This document shows, piece by piece, positions 1-61,297 of a DNA stretch of 64,000 nucleotides. The stretch covers positions 1 through 64,000 of the forward strand of contig NZ_MPDK01000005.1 of assembly GCF_003144315.1 (NCBI RefSeq), in the 5' to 3' direction. Under the pieces are notes generated by a model. The model did no database searches. It was not told where the DNA came from and saw only the letters and a program-made list of their open reading frames with translations. The translations under genes and the position numbers were made by a program. Within the stretch, counting starts at the first letter, position 1. Each line of letters starts with the position of its first letter. The stretch comes from Sulfoacidibacillus thermotolerans. Its GTDB lineage: Bacteria > Bacillota > Bacilli > Alicyclobacillales > SLC66.

Positions 1-71
1 GAGTAGCCAAGTGGTAAGGCAACGGACTTTGACTCCGTCATTCGTAGGTTCGATCCCTACCTCCCCAGCCA
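1..71 (+). tRNA. tRNA-Gln (TTG), 5' end cut by window edge
   Basis: The 3' acceptor strand ctcccca, discriminator g and encoded CCA end at 71. The 5' strand would be tggggag, of which only the last three bases (gag) lie in the window, so about four bases are missing. The anticodon loop ctttgac gives anticodon TTG (Gln). A T-arm with GGTTCGATCC is present. It is the first gene of a five-tRNA cluster. Confidence 0.93.
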
Positions 72-5453: not shown

Positions 5454-6446
5454 ATGAAGTATTTTGTGCGCAAAACGGGCTTTTTACTTCTTACACTATG
5501 GATTGCGATCACACTTAACTTTATTTTGCCGCGACTGATGCCGGGTAATCCAGCACAGGCTATGATGGCAAAATATGCACAGCGTGGGCCGATTACACCA
5601 ACAGAAGAACACGCGCTAGCTCTGATGTTGGGGCTCCCCACTGGATCGCTGTGGAGTCAATACTGGCAATATTTAAGTAATATTTTACACGGGAATTTTG
5701 GTGTTTCTTATTCATTCTATCCATTGTCTGTTATGGCTGTTATAGCAAATGCTTTACCATGGACTCTTATACTTGTTGGCTTGGTGACAATCTTGCAGTT
5801 TATCGTTGGTACACTCCTTGGTATTTATGCAGCTTGGCATCGTGGAAAAAAATTTGATTCGAGTGCGACCGTGTTGTTTTCTTTTACGTCTGCACTTCCG
5901 TATTTTTGGGTTGCCCTCATGTTTATTTATGTGTTTGGCTATATCCTCAATTGGTTCCCTATTTCTGGTGGATATTCTGGCTCATTGTCGCCCACATTGA
6001 ATTGGAATTTCGCGGGAAGTGCTATTTATCACAGTGTTTTGCCTGCATTAACAATTTTTATCACTAGTATTGGCGGATCATTACTTGGGATGCGCAATAA
6101 CATGATTAATACTTTGGGTGAAGATTACATTCTGCTTGCAAGAGCTGAAGGGTTATCAGAGACGACAGTGGCAATTCGTTATGCTGCACGCAATGCGTTA
6201 TTACCTATTGTTACGAATTTCGCTATGTCATTAGGGATGGTTGTTGGCGGTTCACTTTTGATGGAAACGGTATTTGCTTATCCAGGAATGGGGTATCTCT
6301 TAGCCACTGCACTGAACAATCAAGATTATCCATTATTACAAGCCTTATTCTTCTTTATTACGCTAAGTGTATTACTCGCAAATTTTATGGCTGACGTGAT
6401 CTATGGAGTTTTAGATCCACGAGTACGTAAGGGAGGTGCTCGGTAA
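5454..6446 (+). CDS. ABC transporter permease, DppB/OppB type
   Basis: The 330-residue integral membrane protein has an N-terminal TM segment (about 8-28), an extracellular loop, and five further TM segments typical of BPD_transp_1. The cytoplasmic coupling-loop region RAEGLSETTVAIRYAARNAL matches the EAA-type motif of OppB/DppB. The ATG follows AAAGGAG at a spacing of 11 bases. It forms the translocation pore with the next gene product. Confidence 0.9.
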   Translation: MKYFVRKTGFLLLTLWIAITLNFILPRLMPGNPAQAMMAKYAQRGPITPTEEHALALMLGLPTGSLWSQYWQYLSNILHGNFGVSYSFYPLSVMAVIANALPWTLILVGLVTILQFIVGTLLGIYAAWHRGKKFDSSATVLFSFTSALPYFWVALMFIYVFGYILNWFPISGGYSGSLSPTLNWNFAGSAIYHSVLPALTIFITSIGGSLLGMRNNMINTLGEDYILLARAEGLSETTVAIRYAARNALLPIVTNFAMSLGMVVGGSLLMETVFAYPGMGYLLATALNNQDYPLLQALFFFITLSVLLANFMADVIYGVLDPRVRKGGAR

Positions 6447-34058: not shown

Positions 34059-34156
34059 GATCTGGTTCCGCAGATTAAAACAAAGTCTTATTCAGTGAAA
34101 ATCGAGTTGAATTCCGCCACTTAGTAGTCTATCTTTTAAGTTGTGCAAATGGACCT

Positions 34157-34189
34157 GGATTCCTTCGGGTGTGATCACTAAAGGAATCC
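34157..34189 (+). other. Hairpin upstream of sucC
   Basis: GGATTCCTT (34157-34165) pairs perfectly with AAGGAATCC (34181-34189) around a 15-base loop containing the palindrome GTGATCAC. It lies about ten bases before the sucC ribosome-binding site and has no T-run, so it may be a regulatory or stabilising leader hairpin. Confidence 0.35.
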
Positions 34190-34212
34190 GAAACAGGTTG
34201 GGAGGAAGCATC

Positions 34213-35370
34213 GTGAATATTCATGAATATCAAGCCAAAATGGTTTTGCGCAAATATGGCGTAGCAGTTCCAGAAGGGGAAGTAGCATTTACTCCTGATG
34301 AAGCGGTCAAAGTCGCTGAGCGATTTGGTGGACGGGCTGTCGTTAAAGCGCAAATTCATGCAGGGGGTCGCGGGAAGGCTGGAGGCGTAAAGCTTGCAAA
34401 ATCATTGGATGAAGTCCGCACCTATGCAAAAGAATTATTGGGCAAAACATTAGTCACTCATCAAACGGGACCAGAAGGGAAAGTGGTTCGTCGACTTTTA
34501 ATTGAATCCCTTACAGATATTAAAAAAGAGTATTATGTAGGGGTTGTGGTAGACCGTCAAACTGGGCGTGTAGTTATGATGGCTTCAGAAGAAGGCGGTA
34601 TGGAAATTGAGGAAGTTGCGGCTAAAAGTCCAGAAAAGATTTTTCGGGAAGTAATTGATCCTGCAGTTGGACTTCGTCCCTATCAAGCCCGCAAACTCGC
34701 ATATGCCATACATATTCCAAGCGAACTCATAAACAAAGCTGCAGCGTTTATGGTGGCACTTTATCGTGCGTTTGTGGATAACGATTGTTCCATTGCGGAA
34801 ATTAATCCGCTTGTCGTTACAGGCGATGGGAATGTGTTGGCGTTAGATGCGAAGCTAAATTTCGACGATAATGCGCTTTTTCGTCACAAAGATATTGTGG
34901 AATTTCGCGATTTTGAAGAAGAAGATCCACGCGAAGTCGAGGCTTCGAAATTTGATCTCAGTTACATTGGTCTTCAGGGAAATATTGGATGCATGGTGAA
35001 TGGTGCGGGACTTGCTATGGCAACGATGGATACCATTAAGTATTTTGGTGGGGAACCAGCAAATTTCCTTGATGTAGGTGGCGGTGCTTCTGAGCAGAAG
35101 GTGACAGAAGCGTTTAAAATCATCCTTTCTGATTCTGGAGTTAAAGGAATCTTGGTCAATATTTTTGGCGGGATTATGAAGTGTGATGTCATTGCAAATG
35201 CTGTCGTTGCAGCAGCTCGGCAAGTGGGAATAGATCGTCCACTGGTCGTGCGTTTGGAAGGAACAAATGTGCAACTCGGGAAAGAAATTTTAAATAAATC
35301 AGGGCTTGACATTGTTGGTGCGGATTCCTTGGCGGAGGCAGCACAAAAAATTGTTGAACTCGTGAAGTAG
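34213..35370 (+). CDS. sucC: Succinyl-CoA synthetase (ADP-forming) beta subunit
   Basis: The 385-residue protein begins (M)[16 protein letters not shown] and has the ATP-grasp nucleotide site ([20 protein letters not shown]), ending in a ligase-CoA domain ([13 protein letters not shown]). It pairs with SucD to make succinate and ATP from succinyl-CoA in the TCA cycle. The GTG at 34213 follows gggagga; an ORF extension upstream is not conserved. Confidence 0.96.
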
Positions 35371-35382
35371 GAGGAGTATCTC

Positions 35383-36282
35383 ATGAGTATTTTAGTGAAT
35401 AAAGACACGCGTGTCATTACCCAAGGAATTACAGGTGCTACCGGTTTGTTTCATACGAAACAGGCAATTGAATATGGAACAAAAATGGTTGGCGGAGTGA
35501 CCCCTGGAAAAGGTGGAACACTCGTCGAAGGGGTTCCCGTTTTTGATACTGTAGAAGCGGCTGTAAAAGAGACTGGAGCGAATGCCTCCGTCATTTATGT
35601 TCCCCCTGCATTTGCCGCAGACGCGATCTTAGAAGCCGCAGACGCTGGGTTAGAACTCGTCATTTGTATCACAGAAGGTATCCCTATTCTTGATATGGTT
35701 ACGGTGAAGCGTTACTTAGAGGGAAAAGGGACGCGATTGATTGGCCCGAATTGCCCAGGAGTCATCACGCCAGAAGAGTGTAAAATAGGAATTATGCCTG
35801 GTTATATTCACAAACGTGGACATGTGGGCGTAGTTAGTCGCAGCGGAACTCTTACGTACGAAGCTGTGTATCAATTGACCGTTCAAGGCGTGGGACAATC
35901 GACTGCAGTTGGTATCGGTGGCGATCCTGTGAATGGGACAAATTTCGTAGACATTTTGAAAATGTTCAATGAAGACCCGGATACGGAAGCTGTCATCATG
36001 ATTGGTGAAATTGGTGGAACGGCCGAAGAGGAAGCAGCAAAATACGTAAAAGAACACATGAAAAAACCTGTAGCAGGATTTATTGCTGGTCGTAGCGCTC
36101 CTCCCGGCAAGCGTATGGGGCATGCAGGTGCAATTATTTCTGGTGGGAAAGGGACTGCGGAAGAGAAAGTGGCTGCAATGGAGGCTGCTGGAATTCGAGT
36201 GGCAAATACCCCCTCTGAAATGGGCTCTACACTTGTAAAAATGTTAGAAGAACGCAATCTGTTGGAAAAATGTCGTTCTTAA
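35383..36282 (+). CDS. sucD: Succinyl-CoA synthetase alpha subunit
   Basis: The 299-residue protein has an N-terminal CoA-binding Rossmann domain ([20 protein letters not shown]) and the catalytic phosphohistidine segment ([17 protein letters not shown]). It is 12 bases after sucC with aggaggag between, so the two subunits are co-expressed. Confidence 0.96.
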
Positions 36283-36457: not shown

Positions 36458-37585
36458 ATGCGGGTGAATCAGCTGTTGTATTGGCTTTCTTTGCTTGGAG
36501 TAAAGGGGATTGGACCACGTAAAGCATGGAAGATACACTCGAAAGTTTCAACATTTGAAGAGGCACTCACAATGACGAACCAGGATTGGTCAGCGTGTGG
36601 GTTATCTACTAGTCAATCGGAGGAATTACATGCTGCATTAGTACTGAAAAGGCATTACAAAAATGCTGAAAGGATCATGATGGGGTATCAGTTTGTTTTA
36701 ATAGATGACCCCGAGTACCCTGGTTTATTGCGCCATATAACCACACCTCCACCCATTTTATTTTATAAGGGTCAGTTTCGCGAACTGACAAAGAGTGTTG
36801 CGGTAGTTGGCACAAGAAAATGCACGACATATGGGAAGAATGTCGCTTTTGCAATAGCACGTTTGTTGGCTTATGGAGAATATGGTGTTGTTTCTGGTTT
36901 GGCCCAAGGAATTGATCAAGCGGCGCATGAAGGTGCGCTCGAAGCGGGTGGAGTGACGTTTGCTGTACTAGGTTCTGGGATTGACTATATTTATCCTAGG
37001 CAGAACCAGTTGTTGGCAGATCGGATTTTGGCTAACGGTGGTGCGGTGGTAAGTGAATTTCTACCTTGGACTGGTCCGGAGCGTCATCGTTTTCCCATGC
37101 GCAATCGGATCATTAGCGGTCTGTCTCAGGCTGTTGTTATCGTTGAGGCGGGAGTGCGCAGTGGGGCACTTATTACAGCGGATTTTGCGCTTGAGCAGAA
37201 TCGCGAGGTCTATGCCGTTCCAGGATCAATTTTTAGCTCGGCATCTGCTGGGACCAATGCATTGATTGCCTGTGGTGCCATACCACTTATACATCCTGCA
37301 GCGATGATGACTGAGTTTGTCACGCCTGAAAAGAATATGGAACGTATTGCACATGAGTGGGAAGCTAAAGAGAGTGATACAAAGGAAGAAGTCGTTTTAG
37401 CACGTCATATTGTCCATGAGTTGCAGGCAGCACCCATGAGAATCGAGGAACTTATAAATTCACTTAGGAAGAGCGGTTTTTCAATGAAGTTAATTCAAAC
37501 TTCAATTGCTCAAATGGAAGTGTCAAATGCCATTCAGCGAACGGATGATGGGCAGTATGTTTTAGTGGGGAATTCACACGAATAG
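36458..37585 (+). CDS. dprA: DNA-processing protein DprA (Smf)
   Basis: The 375-residue protein has an N-terminal helix-hairpin-helix/SAM-like domain (GVKGIGPRKAWKI), a Rossmann DprA core (VAVVGTRKCTTYG, SGLAQGIDQAAHEGAL, GSGIDYIYPRQN, SEFLPWTGPERHRFPMRNRIISG as separate stretches), and a C-terminal winged-helix-like DML1 domain (MRIEELINSL). It loads RecA on incoming single-stranded DNA. gaggggtg lies seven bases before the ATG. Confidence 0.95.
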   Translation: MRVNQLLYWLSLLGVKGIGPRKAWKIHSKVSTFEEALTMTNQDWSACGLSTSQSEELHAALVLKRHYKNAERIMMGYQFVLIDDPEYPGLLRHITTPPPILFYKGQFRELTKSVAVVGTRKCTTYGKNVAFAIARLLAYGEYGVVSGLAQGIDQAAHEGALEAGGVTFAVLGSGIDYIYPRQNQLLADRILANGGAVVSEFLPWTGPERHRFPMRNRIISGLSQAVVIVEAGVRSGALITADFALEQNREVYAVPGSIFSSASAGTNALIACGAIPLIHPAAMMTEFVTPEKNMERIAHEWEAKESDTKEEVVLARHIVHELQAAPMRIEELINSLRKSGFSMKLIQTSIAQMEVSNAIQRTDDGQYVLVGNSHE

Positions 37586-37698: not shown

Positions 37699-39786
37699 AT
37701 GGCAGACTATCTCGTCATCGTCGAGTCGCCAGCAAAGGCTAAAACCATTGGGAAATATCTTGGGGCTCGATACGTGGTTAAGGCGTCAATGGGGCATGTG
37801 CGCGATTTGCCCAAAAGCCAACTTGGTGTTGATGTTTCACATCACTTTGAACCGAAATATATTACGATCCGCGGAAAAGGCGATGTATTAAAACAATTGC
37901 GCGAGTCAAGCAAAAAAGTAAAGGCGGTCTATCTTGCCGCCGACCCTGATCGAGAAGGCGAAGCGATCGCATGGCATCTTGCGCAAAGTCTTGAAATTGA
38001 TCCGAATCAGCCATGCCGTGTCGTTTTCAATGAAATTACTAAACAAGCAGTAAAAGAAGCGTTTAAACACCCGCGTAAAGTGAATATGGATTTAGTACAT
38101 GCGCAACAGGCACGACGCATCCTCGATCGTCTTGTGGGGTATAGGATTAGTCCACTCCTATGGAAGAAAGTGAAGCGTGGGCTTTCTGCTGGGCGGGTAC
38201 AATCTGTTGCTGTTCGACTGGTTGTCGATAGGGAGCGTGAGATTCGCGCCTTTGTTCCTGAAGAATATTGGACAGTGACGGCATTTTGTCAAAGTAATGG
38301 AGAAAATTTTAAAGCACAGTTTCATGGGTATGGAAAAAATAAGGTGGAATTGCATTCCGAGCAAGAGGTTGCAGAACTTCTTTCACGCCTTTGCGAATCT
38401 TAATTTGTTGTAAAAAGTGTAAAAGCATCAGAGCGCAAACGCAATCCTGCTGCTCCTTTTATTACGAGCAGTCTACAGCAAGAAGCCGCTCGTAAATTAT
38501 CTTTTCGCTCGCAAAAAACGATGGCTGTAGCTCAGCAATTGTATGAAGGGGTGGAATTGCCTGCAGAAGGGGCTGTAGGTTTGATCACATACATGCGCAC
38601 AGATTCTACACGCATTTCTGAAACAGCCATTGCTGAGGTGCGAGAGTATATCAAAAACGTTTACGGCGATGTATATGTACCAGAAAAACCACGGGAATAC
38701 AGTGTAAAGAAAAATGCTCAAGATGCGCACGAAGCGATTCGTCCGACGTCAGTCAAACGGCATCCAGATGATCTAAAAGATGTGCTATCGCGCGATCAAT
38801 TACGTCTTTACCGATTGATTTATGATCGGTTTGTTGCTAGTCAAATGACATCAGCCATCCTAGATACTCTCAGTGTAGATTTGGCTGCGGGAGATGCTAT
38901 TTTTCGAGCGACAGGTTCCAAAATCAAATTCCCGGGATTTATGAAAGTTTATACCGAATCAACAGATGATCAGCAAGATGAGCAAGGCTATTTGCCGGAT
39001 CTGACGGTGGATCAAGTTCTTGTTCCGCGTCCCACATTAAAACCGGAACAACATTTCACCCAACCACCTCCCCGGTATTCAGAAGCTCGACTGATCAAGG
39101 CGATGGAGGAACTTGGTATTGGTCGACCGAGTACATATGCTCCTACGGTAGATACCATTCAAAAAAGGGGCTATGTGTTACTTGAAGAAAAACGATTTGT
39201 ACCTACAGAGTTGGGCGAAATTGTAGTCGACTTGCTCAAGGAATTTTTTCCGACCATCGTGGATGTTGATTTTACAGCGCAATTGGAAAAACAGCTTGAT
39301 CAGGTGGAAGAAGGAGAAAGTGATTTTGTTCAAATGCTCGAGCAATTTTACAGTGGCTTAGAAGGCTATCTTGAAGTTGCGGAAAAAAGTATGGAGCATG
39401 TGCAACTTGAAGAAGAGTATGCTGATGAGTACTGTGAAAAATGTGGTCGTCAGATGGTATATAAACATGGTCGATTCGGAAAATTTCTCGCGTGCCCTGG
39501 ATTTCCTGAGTGTCGCAATGCTAAGCCGATTGTAAAAGAGGTTGGTGTAAATTGTCCGCGTTGTGGGAAGCCGTTGGTTGAGCGAAGAGGGAAAAAACGC
39601 AAAGTTTTCTATGGTTGTAGTGGATATCCTGAATGCAATTACGTGCTCTGGGATCAACCGACAGGGGAGTTGTGTAAATTTTGCGGAGAACCTTTAGTGC
39701 GAAAGCGTAAGGGGAAATCGAACCAAGATGTGGTAGCGTGTTCCAATCCGAATTGCCATTACGAGGAAGCGACAAACGATGCATAG
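37699..39786 (+). pseudogene. topA: DNA topoisomerase I, reading frame interrupted by one in-frame TAA
   Basis: The 5' part (codons 1-234) encodes the Toprim domain ([31 protein letters not shown]) and the 3' part holds the active-site Tyr298 (ITYMRTDSTRIS), GRPSTYAPTV and three C-terminal zinc ribbons. Between them, codon 235 (38401-38403) is TAA; the codons on both sides are in the same frame and match TopA (ERKRNPAAPFITSSLQQEA), so no bases are lost. Restoring a sense codon would give 695 residues, the normal length. No in-frame start precedes the ATG at 38521. TopA is essential in Bacilli, so this may be a sequencing error, a recent mutation or read-through. The ATG at 37699 follows gaggaggag. 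Confidence 0.9.
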
Positions 39787-59432: not shown

Positions 59433-60224
59433 ATGATGATTGGGATAACTTCTATACTCATTTTCCTGTTGATCTTCGTACGTGCAACTGGTGTTGTATT
59501 TGCATCTCCGATTTTTGGGAATCTGCAGATTCCGACTTTAGTGAAAATCGGATTGTCGTTTTACTTGTCTGTCATCATAGTGGAAAGTTTGCCTAAAACA
59601 ACGCTGCTTGCACATGGAGTTCTTGTCAATGCGACGACTTTTGTCCTCTTGCTTTTGCAAGAGGCGCTTGTCGGGATTGCTCTTGGCTTGATTGCAAACT
59701 TTATTTTTTATGCGATTCAGTTTGCGGGTGCGTTGCTCGATTTGCAAATCGGATTTTCGATGGTAAATCTAGTGAATCCTGGATTTTCGACCCCATCGAC
59801 ACCCCTTGCGAATCTGCTCTACATTTTATTTGCCCTATTTTTTCTCGGAGTTCACGGCGATTACAGTGTCATATTGGCTATCTTACAAAGTTATCGCTAT
59901 GTTCCGATCGGTTCTGCCCACTTTGGGGGGCCGGTAGCGGATGTTTTTTTACATGCGACGATCACTTTGTTCCTGATTGCCGTAGAGATTGCTGCTCCGG
60001 TTATGTTAGCTATTTTCTTGACAAATATTGCTTTTGCTGTGGCGTCACGTGCGGTTCCGCAAATGAATGTATTTTTTGTTGGGCTTCCCATTACGCTGTT
60101 TTTAGGGTTAGGACTTGTAGGTGTTCTCATGCCAGCATTTGTCGCTTTGATGCGTGAATTGATTTATACAATGGATCAACAGTTGAATCAACTTTTACTG
60201 GCTTTGGGGAGTGGCAGCGCCTGA
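59433..60224 (+). CDS. fliR: Flagellar export gate protein FliR
   Basis: The 263-residue protein has about six TM segments and FliR motifs (IFVRATGVVFASPIFGN, LVGIALGLIANFIFYAIQFAG, FSTPSTPLANLLY, RAVPQMNVFFVGLP). The ATG directly abuts the fliQ stop, and the stop overlaps the flhB ATG. Confidence 0.95.
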   Translation: MMIGITSILIFLLIFVRATGVVFASPIFGNLQIPTLVKIGLSFYLSVIIVESLPKTTLLAHGVLVNATTFVLLLLQEALVGIALGLIANFIFYAIQFAGALLDLQIGFSMVNLVNPGFSTPSTPLANLLYILFALFFLGVHGDYSVILAILQSYRYVPIGSAHFGGPVADVFLHATITLFLIAVEIAAPVMLAIFLTNIAFAVASRAVPQMNVFFVGLPITLFLGLGLVGVLMPAFVALMRELIYTMDQQLNQLLLALGSGSA

Positions 60225-61297
60225 TGCAATGGAATTTACAGCTTTTTGCTGAAAAAACGGAGCAACCCACAGCACGGCGCAAGACGGAGGCTAAGCGAAA
60301 AGGACAAGTTGCAAGAAGTCCCGATTTGACGGCTGCTGTCGGATTTTTAGCGTTAGTGGGCAGCCTTTGGTTGTTTGGTGGAGGGCTTTTGTCAGCACTC
60401 TGGCAAGCGATGATCTTGTTATTAGGTCAAGGCACCTTGCAAGCAGCGCATGTAACACTTGATCGTGGGGATGTGCAATTTGCCTTCATACATGTTTTTT
60501 CAGCATTAATACCGATTGTTCTAACTGGACTTGGAGTGGGGTTATTGACAGCTTTTGCGCAAGTTGGCCCTATGTTTGTGCCGAGTTTACTTGTTCCAGA
60601 TTTTACACGAATCGATTTTTTAAAAGGAGTTGCGCGGTTTTTCTCAGTGCGTTCGATTGAAGAGTTAATTAAATCGATGATCAAATTGGGAATTATCGCG
60701 ATTGCAGTCTATCTTGCCATCATGGCGAGTGCGCCTCAGGTCTTGATGTTGGTTGGAGCTGATCCTGCTCAATTGTTTGCATTATTTATAAACAGTGCAT
60801 TGATGATCTTTTTGTATGTTGCAGTTGCTTTTCTTGTCTTGTCGTTTGCTGACTTTTTGTTTCAGCGCTTTCAATTTAATCGCAATATCAAGATGACGAA
60901 ACAGGAAGTCAAAGATGAGATGAAACAAGCAGAGGGGAATCCAGCAATTAAACGTAAGATTCGTGAACGCGGTCGCGCAATCGCTCGTCGACGGATGTTA
61001 CATAAAGTTCCAACAGCCGATGTAATCATTACCAATCCCACGCATTATGCGGTTGCACTGCGATATGACGCGAAAACCATGCATGCTCCACAGGTCATTG
61101 CGAAAGGCAGCGACCAGTTGGCGCATAAAATTCGCGAAATTGCGATCCAACATGATGTGCCTATCGTTGAGAACCGACCATTAGCACGATCGCTTTATCA
61201 GTTGACAGAGATTGACGAGTTTGTGCCGCCTGAGTTATTTGCAGCCGTCGCAGAAGTTCTTGCTTATGTTTATCGCCTGCAAAAGCGTAACGTCTAA
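60224..61297 (+). CDS. flhB: Flagellar export switch protein FlhB
   Basis: The 357-residue protein begins AEKTEQPTARRKTEAKRKGQ, has four TM segments and the self-cleavage site VIITNPTHYAVALRYD (NPTH), followed by the autocleaved C-terminal domain. It switches export from rod/hook to filament substrates after hook-length measurement by FliK. Confidence 0.96.
   Translation: MQWNLQLFAEKTEQPTARRKTEAKRKGQVARSPDLTAAVGFLALVGSLWLFGGGLLSALWQAMILLLGQGTLQAAHVTLDRGDVQFAFIHVFSALIPIVLTGLGVGLLTAFAQVGPMFVPSLLVPDFTRIDFLKGVARFFSVRSIEELIKSMIKLGIIAIAVYLAIMASAPQVLMLVGADPAQLFALFINSALMIFLYVAVAFLVLSFADFLFQRFQFNRNIKMTKQEVKDEMKQAEGNPAIKRKIRERGRAIARRRMLHKVPTADVIITNPTHYAVALRYDAKTMHAPQVIAKGSDQLAHKIREIAIQHDVPIVENRPLARSLYQLTEIDEFVPPELFAAVAEVLAYVYRLQKRNV

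Follow-up and report, generated by a model that had tools for sequence, protein, structure and literature searches.

An in-frame TAA in the topA gene of a Sulfoacidibacillus thermotolerans draft genome, probably an error of the consensus

In the stretch of 64,000 nucleotides analysed here (the window), the topA gene of Sulfoacidibacillus thermotolerans is read in one frame on both sides of a single internal TAA. This TAA is probably a single wrong base in the draft consensus, or a base from a minority strain that was taken into the consensus, in an organism that would make full-length TopA. It is most likely a private base-level accident and not a novel form of decoding. That the base itself is wrong is our inference.

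The topA frame and its internal stop

The topA frame (37699-39786, plus strand) counts 695 codons with a single internal stop, TAA at 38401-38403 (codon 235). Both the one in-frame stop and the restored length of 695 had been described in an earlier reading made from the letters of this DNA (hereafter the sequence-only reading), and both were recovered when the frame was read. The features of the locus are the following:

37699..38403, plus strand: upstream open part of topA, 234 codons and the TAA, with Toprim and the beginning of Topoisom_bac (frame and Pfam)
38401..38403, plus strand: in-frame TAA, codon 235, absent from the relatives examined (frame and comparison with relatives)
38404..39786, plus strand: downstream part of topA in the same frame, with the rest of Topoisom_bac and its active tyrosine, the zinc ribbons and the natural stop (Pfam and structure alignment)
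38521..39786, plus strand: first ATG-started in-frame ORF past the TAA, 421 aa, without Toprim (ORF list and Pfam)

With the TAA read as X, the Toprim, Topoisom_bac and zinc-ribbon domains were all found in one frame, and Pfam placed them at residues 5-113 (Toprim), 128-547 (Topoisom_bac, PF01131) and 577-613 (best zinc-ribbon stretch) of the read-through protein. Each part of the gene, upstream or downstream of the TAA, gave by itself a strong match to TopA families, and the read-through TopA is 89% identical to both TopAs of the same genus (genomes G001 and G002); this frame is therefore more than a chance open frame. The protein is collinear with the TopA of relatives on both sides of the TAA, in agreement with the earlier statement that no base had been gained or lost. 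The best-scoring solved structure, 6ozw_A, aligns to residues 5-558, straight across the TAA site, and a tyrosine, which we take to be the active-site tyrosine, was counted on this alignment at residue 298 of the read-through numbering. The sequence-only reading had also divided the domains between the two parts: Toprim does lie upstream and the zinc ribbons downstream, but the TAA cuts inside Topoisom_bac and not between domains. The uninterrupted frame of TopA is thus broken in this assembly of S. thermotolerans by the TAA at codon 235.

As the sequence-only reading had stated, ATG, GTG and TTG are absent in frame from the TAA up to the ATG at 38521, and among the rarer starts checked (CTG, ATT, ATC and ATA) only one ATT, at 38461, is present. 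No Shine-Dalgarno-like sequence was seen by eye directly upstream of ATG 38521. Restart downstream of the TAA was rejected, there being no suitable start before 38521. Gene order from 34141 to 36282 and from 39738 onward is the same in G001 and G002, and the ORF directly upstream of topA (36458-37585) had no match above the 55% identity cut in this gene-order comparison.

Comparison of TopA with relatives

TopA was surveyed in 60 other genomes, 58 of which gave a match, the two others being 73% and 60% complete. In all 58 the best TopA match is free of internal stops, that of G058 covering residues 1-493 only. Stops do occur in some weaker matches (G037, G043), secondary ones the size of a zinc ribbon, and these are not TopA. 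The column of codon 235 was read in 109 rows other than S. thermotolerans, drawn from 30 loci of the TopA survey and the best 80 of 413 candidates, so that some genomes are counted twice; it holds 13 kinds of residues (E 34, D 17, A 17, R 9, S 8, P 7, Q 6, T 3, N 2, K 2, G 2, F 1 and H 1) and no stop. Comparison of the site in related genomes, one of the checks proposed in the sequence-only reading, thus shows that the TAA is private to this S. thermotolerans assembly as far as seen (0/58 relatives with a TopA match, 0/109 rows), at a freely variable site tolerating almost any residue. A stop at the same codon in relatives, the mark of a conserved programmed read-through, is consequently found in none of these genomes or rows. 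A pattern search for viral copies of topA gave no match, and in the plasmid collection the best match to the upstream part of topA is 70.6% identical.

Changes past the stop were compared within the genus. Lineage-specific changes past the TAA number 13/337 in S. thermotolerans, 19/343 in G001 and 18/342 in G002, and the TopA residues unique against eight relatives are 2, 7 and 2 respectively. Nonsynonymous distances past the TAA are 0.096 between S. thermotolerans and G001, 0.090 between S. thermotolerans and G002 and 0.084 between G001 and G002; for the last 135 codons they are 0.103, 0.081 and 0.067 in the same order. The slightly higher distances of S. thermotolerans represent a small difference toward relaxed constraint, which does not appear in the distances to G008 past the TAA, where S. 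thermotolerans is the nearest (0.151, compared with 0.158 for G001 and 0.170 for G002). The marks of a pseudogene were therefore not found in topA, which has no further break and whose changes are comparable with those of intact relatives, with slightly higher distances past the TAA. An old pseudogene was ruled out by the substitution and unique-residue counts, in which there is no clear decay. The gene is otherwise under normal purifying selection and is not clearly decayed. No mark would be expected from an event of very recent date; the TAA, if real, is very young.

Close to the stop, residue 231 of S. thermotolerans differs from all 15 aligned family relatives, which have I or V there, and its Cys at 232 is found in none of the 15. 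These private residues within four codons of the TAA fit a locally poor consensus, but the hint is weak, because the stretch 221-240 varies in all three same-genus comparisons.

Frequency of broken genes in the assembly

A survey of broken genes was carried out on 343.8 kb of the S. thermotolerans genome (C48:1-200000 and all of C81) against stretches of G001. Interior in-frame stops were accepted in 2 of 229 non-overlapping gene matches, namely topA and a HAD-family hydrolase, and no frameshift was accepted anywhere in this stretch; on the 143.8 kb contig of topA, no other gene has an accepted interior stop. Ten rows had been flagged on this side, and the eight set aside consisted of six whose stop lies no further than codon 36 of the G001 frame, taken as probable over-extended starts, one partial match without a stop and one 92-codon frame whose frameshift flag was judged spurious. 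The reverse comparison, with 230 matches, gave a single clear break, a frameshifted FlhB-family gene in G001. This was the one row counted out of 12, the rest being six near-start stops, four frames of fewer than 130 codons (two of which overlie a tRNA cluster) and the partner of the HAD case. The FlhB-family gene is intact in the window (60224-61297), its homologue on contig C5 of G001 being frameshifted in the assembly.

The HAD-family hydrolase (L182:4715-5776, on C48) has an in-frame TAG at 5573 with HAD matches on both sides, the G001 frame being open. This break may be a genuine pseudogene and is for that reason no clean control for error. A coding-potential scan of 743.8 kb returned 55 candidates with three recognised interior stops (topA, the HAD-family hydrolase and a peroxiredoxin); the remaining ones were judged gene ends by eye, the comparison by homology having covered 343.8 kb. 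In the other 400 kb one candidate was looked at and is a natural end by eye. Since about 5% of the single-base substitutions in topA create a stop (311/6246), two nonsense breaks would imply, as an estimate, that substitution errors in the stretch surveyed number some tens.

Decoding of UAA and a contrasting TGA

The S. thermotolerans genome gave 42 tRNA matches to RF00005, 41 of which were named by ARAGORN. No TTA, CTA or TCA anticodon is present among these 41, a set that is incomplete, having no Glu and tRNA-Sec only through its own model; the 42nd match, cut off at a contig start, has a Gln-type anticodon by eye. The suppressor tRNA that the sequence-only reading had proposed to search for was thus not encountered, none of the 42 matches, a set without Glu, having a TTA anticodon. 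As to the contigs themselves, that of the window starts inside a tRNA gene (window 1-63, the anticodon being of Gln type by eye), with tRNAs for Thr, Met, Phe and Cys after it, and a Lys-Leu-Pro tRNA trio occurs twice in the genome (C54:33678-33942 and C81:137183-137447), within about 8 kb of contig ends, and is perhaps a repeat breaking the assembly.

Two RF-1-family factors, not typed as RF1 or RF2, were found in the genome, and 39 ORFs picked in the window (38 with a counterpart in G001 or G002) end with TAA (15), TGA (14) or TAG (10). Reassignment of UAA was ruled out on these two grounds. The base after the topA TAA is a T, and UAAU has been put forward as the stop signal of highest efficiency in bacteria (PMC5289835). 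No unusual fold was found around the TAA (z -1.52, 12/200 shuffles as stable), and structure-driven read-through was set aside. With no TTA anticodon in the incomplete set of 42 tRNAs, TAA a normal terminator and TAA-T a strong one, the suppressor-mediated read-through put forward in the sequence-only reading is left unsupported.

The same genome offers a different kind of internal stop. A peroxiredoxin gene of the AhpC/TSA family (C48:388292-388756, minus strand; L229:8292-8756), presumably Bcp-like, has an in-frame TGA at 388622-388624, at the TPG*T position, which we take to be that of the catalytic Cys of the family; the same codon is TGA in G001, G002 and G005. The best peroxiredoxin matches contain a TGA in 8 of 21 genomes, S. 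thermotolerans included, the position having been checked in four. A SelB match above the cut-off and a tRNA-Sec with anticodon TCA, the latter found by its own model, are present in the genome, and no SECIS-like Rfam match was found near the TGA. No paper joining selenoproteins, peroxiredoxin and Alicyclobacillus was found. Judged on these features of the genome, the peroxiredoxin is a probable selenoprotein with the conserved TGA as selenocysteine site. It would thus present a real recoded stop in the same genome, conserved and accompanied by its machinery, marks which the topA TAA is without. Another peroxiredoxin-like match, interrupted by a single in-frame TGA in S. thermotolerans (C70:133992-134384) as well as in G001 (C7:144034-144417), is possibly a further selenoprotein.

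Other topoisomerases and gyrase

The S. thermotolerans assembly (2.87 Mb, 135 contigs, 99.86% complete, 1.43% contamination) was searched for other topoisomerases. No second type IA enzyme was found in it, the one PF01131 match being the topA of the window, and no ParE or topoisomerase IV, the one PF00204 match being GyrB. The sequence-only reading had suggested that another topoisomerase might cover the loss and that a second topA or topB be looked for: none was found, and within the limits of the assembly such cover is contradicted. A Toprim survey of the genome gave six matches, not each identified. In several relatives, including the same-genus G001, there is a further type IA match, weaker and about 700 codons long, which is TopB-like by our reading.

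Compensation by gyrase was first hinted at by GyrA, which has 55 differences specific to S. thermotolerans compared with 21 for G001 and 14 for G002 when no outgroup is used, and this candidate was then rejected. Residues of GyrA and GyrB unique against unanimous relatives number 4 and 0 in S. thermotolerans, 6 and 1 in G001, and 4 and 2 in G002, one row of the GyrB comparison set, that of G007 (586 aa), being an outlier at a distance of about 29-30%. GyrA distances are 10.1% between S. thermotolerans and G001, 9.4% between S. thermotolerans and G002 and 5.4% between G001 and G002. Of five outgroups, G005 (21.0 compared with 19.1 and 19.8) is the only one from which S. thermotolerans is farther than G001 and G002 are; to each of the remaining four it is the nearest of the three. 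The GyrA and GyrB sequences thus give no sign of gyrase compensation in S. thermotolerans.

Discussion

According to the explanation that we favour, S. thermotolerans cells would most likely make ordinary full-length TopA, and the TAA would be one wrong consensus base of a draft genome in 135 contigs, or a minority-strain base absorbed into the consensus. The private TAA, the freely variable site, the purifying selection, the lack of a detected backup topoisomerase and the interior stops in 2/229 matches count for a base error. On the other hand, no frameshift was accepted in this genome, topA is the sole accepted stop on its contig, the assembly is not visibly bad and the nonsynonymous distances of S. 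thermotolerans to G001 and G002 past the TAA slightly exceed the G001-G002 distance. A base error in the assembly, which the sequence-only reading had listed among its explanations, is consequently the one that fits best and is still unproven. The assembly is presumably metagenome-derived, judging from the titles of the records of its nearest titled relatives, the nine best of which (L032-L040) are metagenome assemblies with coverages of 1.3-5.2 in eight titles and 55 in one. Draft genomes do contain isolated in-frame stops that stem from errors of the consensus or from strain variation. Literature was searched for stops or pseudogenes arising from metagenome-assembly errors, and no paper combining all these subjects was found.

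A genuine and very recent nonsense variant in the sequenced population, borne either by a lineage that survives through an unseen compensatory change or by dying or slow cells that form a minority, is possible though rather unlikely. Its TAA would be expected to be private and the rest of topA not clearly decayed, as observed. According to a review (PMC7140829), topA null mutants of E. coli and B. subtilis survive via gyrase changes or topoisomerase IV amplification, and Shigella flexneri null mutants are reported to grow, though slowly, with no compensation; these known routes of compensation are, however, at odds with a genome in which no ParE was found and GyrA and GyrB are unremarkable, and the same review reports that topA null mutants were not obtainable in M. 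tuberculosis and H. pylori, which are without topoisomerase IV. Read-through, in which ribosomes would decode the UAA as an amino acid and full-length TopA would be produced in sufficient amount, is improbable. The 13 kinds of residues tolerated at the site in relatives mean that almost any insertion could give a working TopA, and the genome seems to recode another stop, TGA, as selenocysteine, but the 42 tRNA matches (without Glu and with tRNA-Sec unlisted, so that a missed gene is possible) contain no TTA anticodon, the two RF-1-family factors are present with TAA ending 15/39 of the window ORFs checked, UAAU is the stop signal proposed as most efficient (PMC5289835), the fold is not unusual and the stop is not common to relatives.

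The recognisable domains retained by both parts of topA would suit a split enzyme, with polypeptides from 37699 and 38521 assembling into an active topoisomerase. Restart at 38521 (codon 275) would however drop residues 235-274 of Topoisom_bac, this ATG has neither a Shine-Dalgarno-like sequence by eye nor a nearer ATG, GTG or TTG before it, and the best TopA matches of relatives are never broken by a stop, which leaves this arrangement barely credible. Hardly more can be said for a dispensable topA whose role another topoisomerase has taken over: several relatives, G001 among them, do carry the second, weaker type IA match, but the S. thermotolerans genome, 99.86% complete, has one PF01131 and one PF00204 match. 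That a natural bacterium lives with its sole type IA gene cut by a UAA and with gyrase as the only other detected topoisomerase, whether by reading efficiently through a strong stop signal or without topoisomerase I, is judged very improbable. If the TAA is real and fixed, the organism has either no working type IA topoisomerase and no detected topoisomerase IV or an efficient read-through of UAA, a surprising situation in both cases. The case serves as a caution: when a draft assembly shows an isolated stop in an essential gene, relatives and reads should be consulted before any biology is built on it.

Taken together, S. thermotolerans TopA is alike to bacterial TopA (PF01751, PF01131 and PF01396) in domain order, active tyrosine, zinc ribbons and collinearity, and differs from it by one in-frame TAA at codon 235 found in this assembly only. 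It shares with programmed selenocysteine recoding a stop inside an otherwise intact frame; however, this stop is a TAA and not a TGA and is unconserved, whereas the probable selenocysteine TGA of the same genome is common to G001, G002 and G005. With the stops that consensus errors or strain variants leave in draft genomes, of which that of the HAD-family hydrolase may be another case in the same assembly, the topA TAA has in common that it is single, private and unconserved with intact flanks. It differs from them in that topA should be an essential gene, so that a true loss is less likely.
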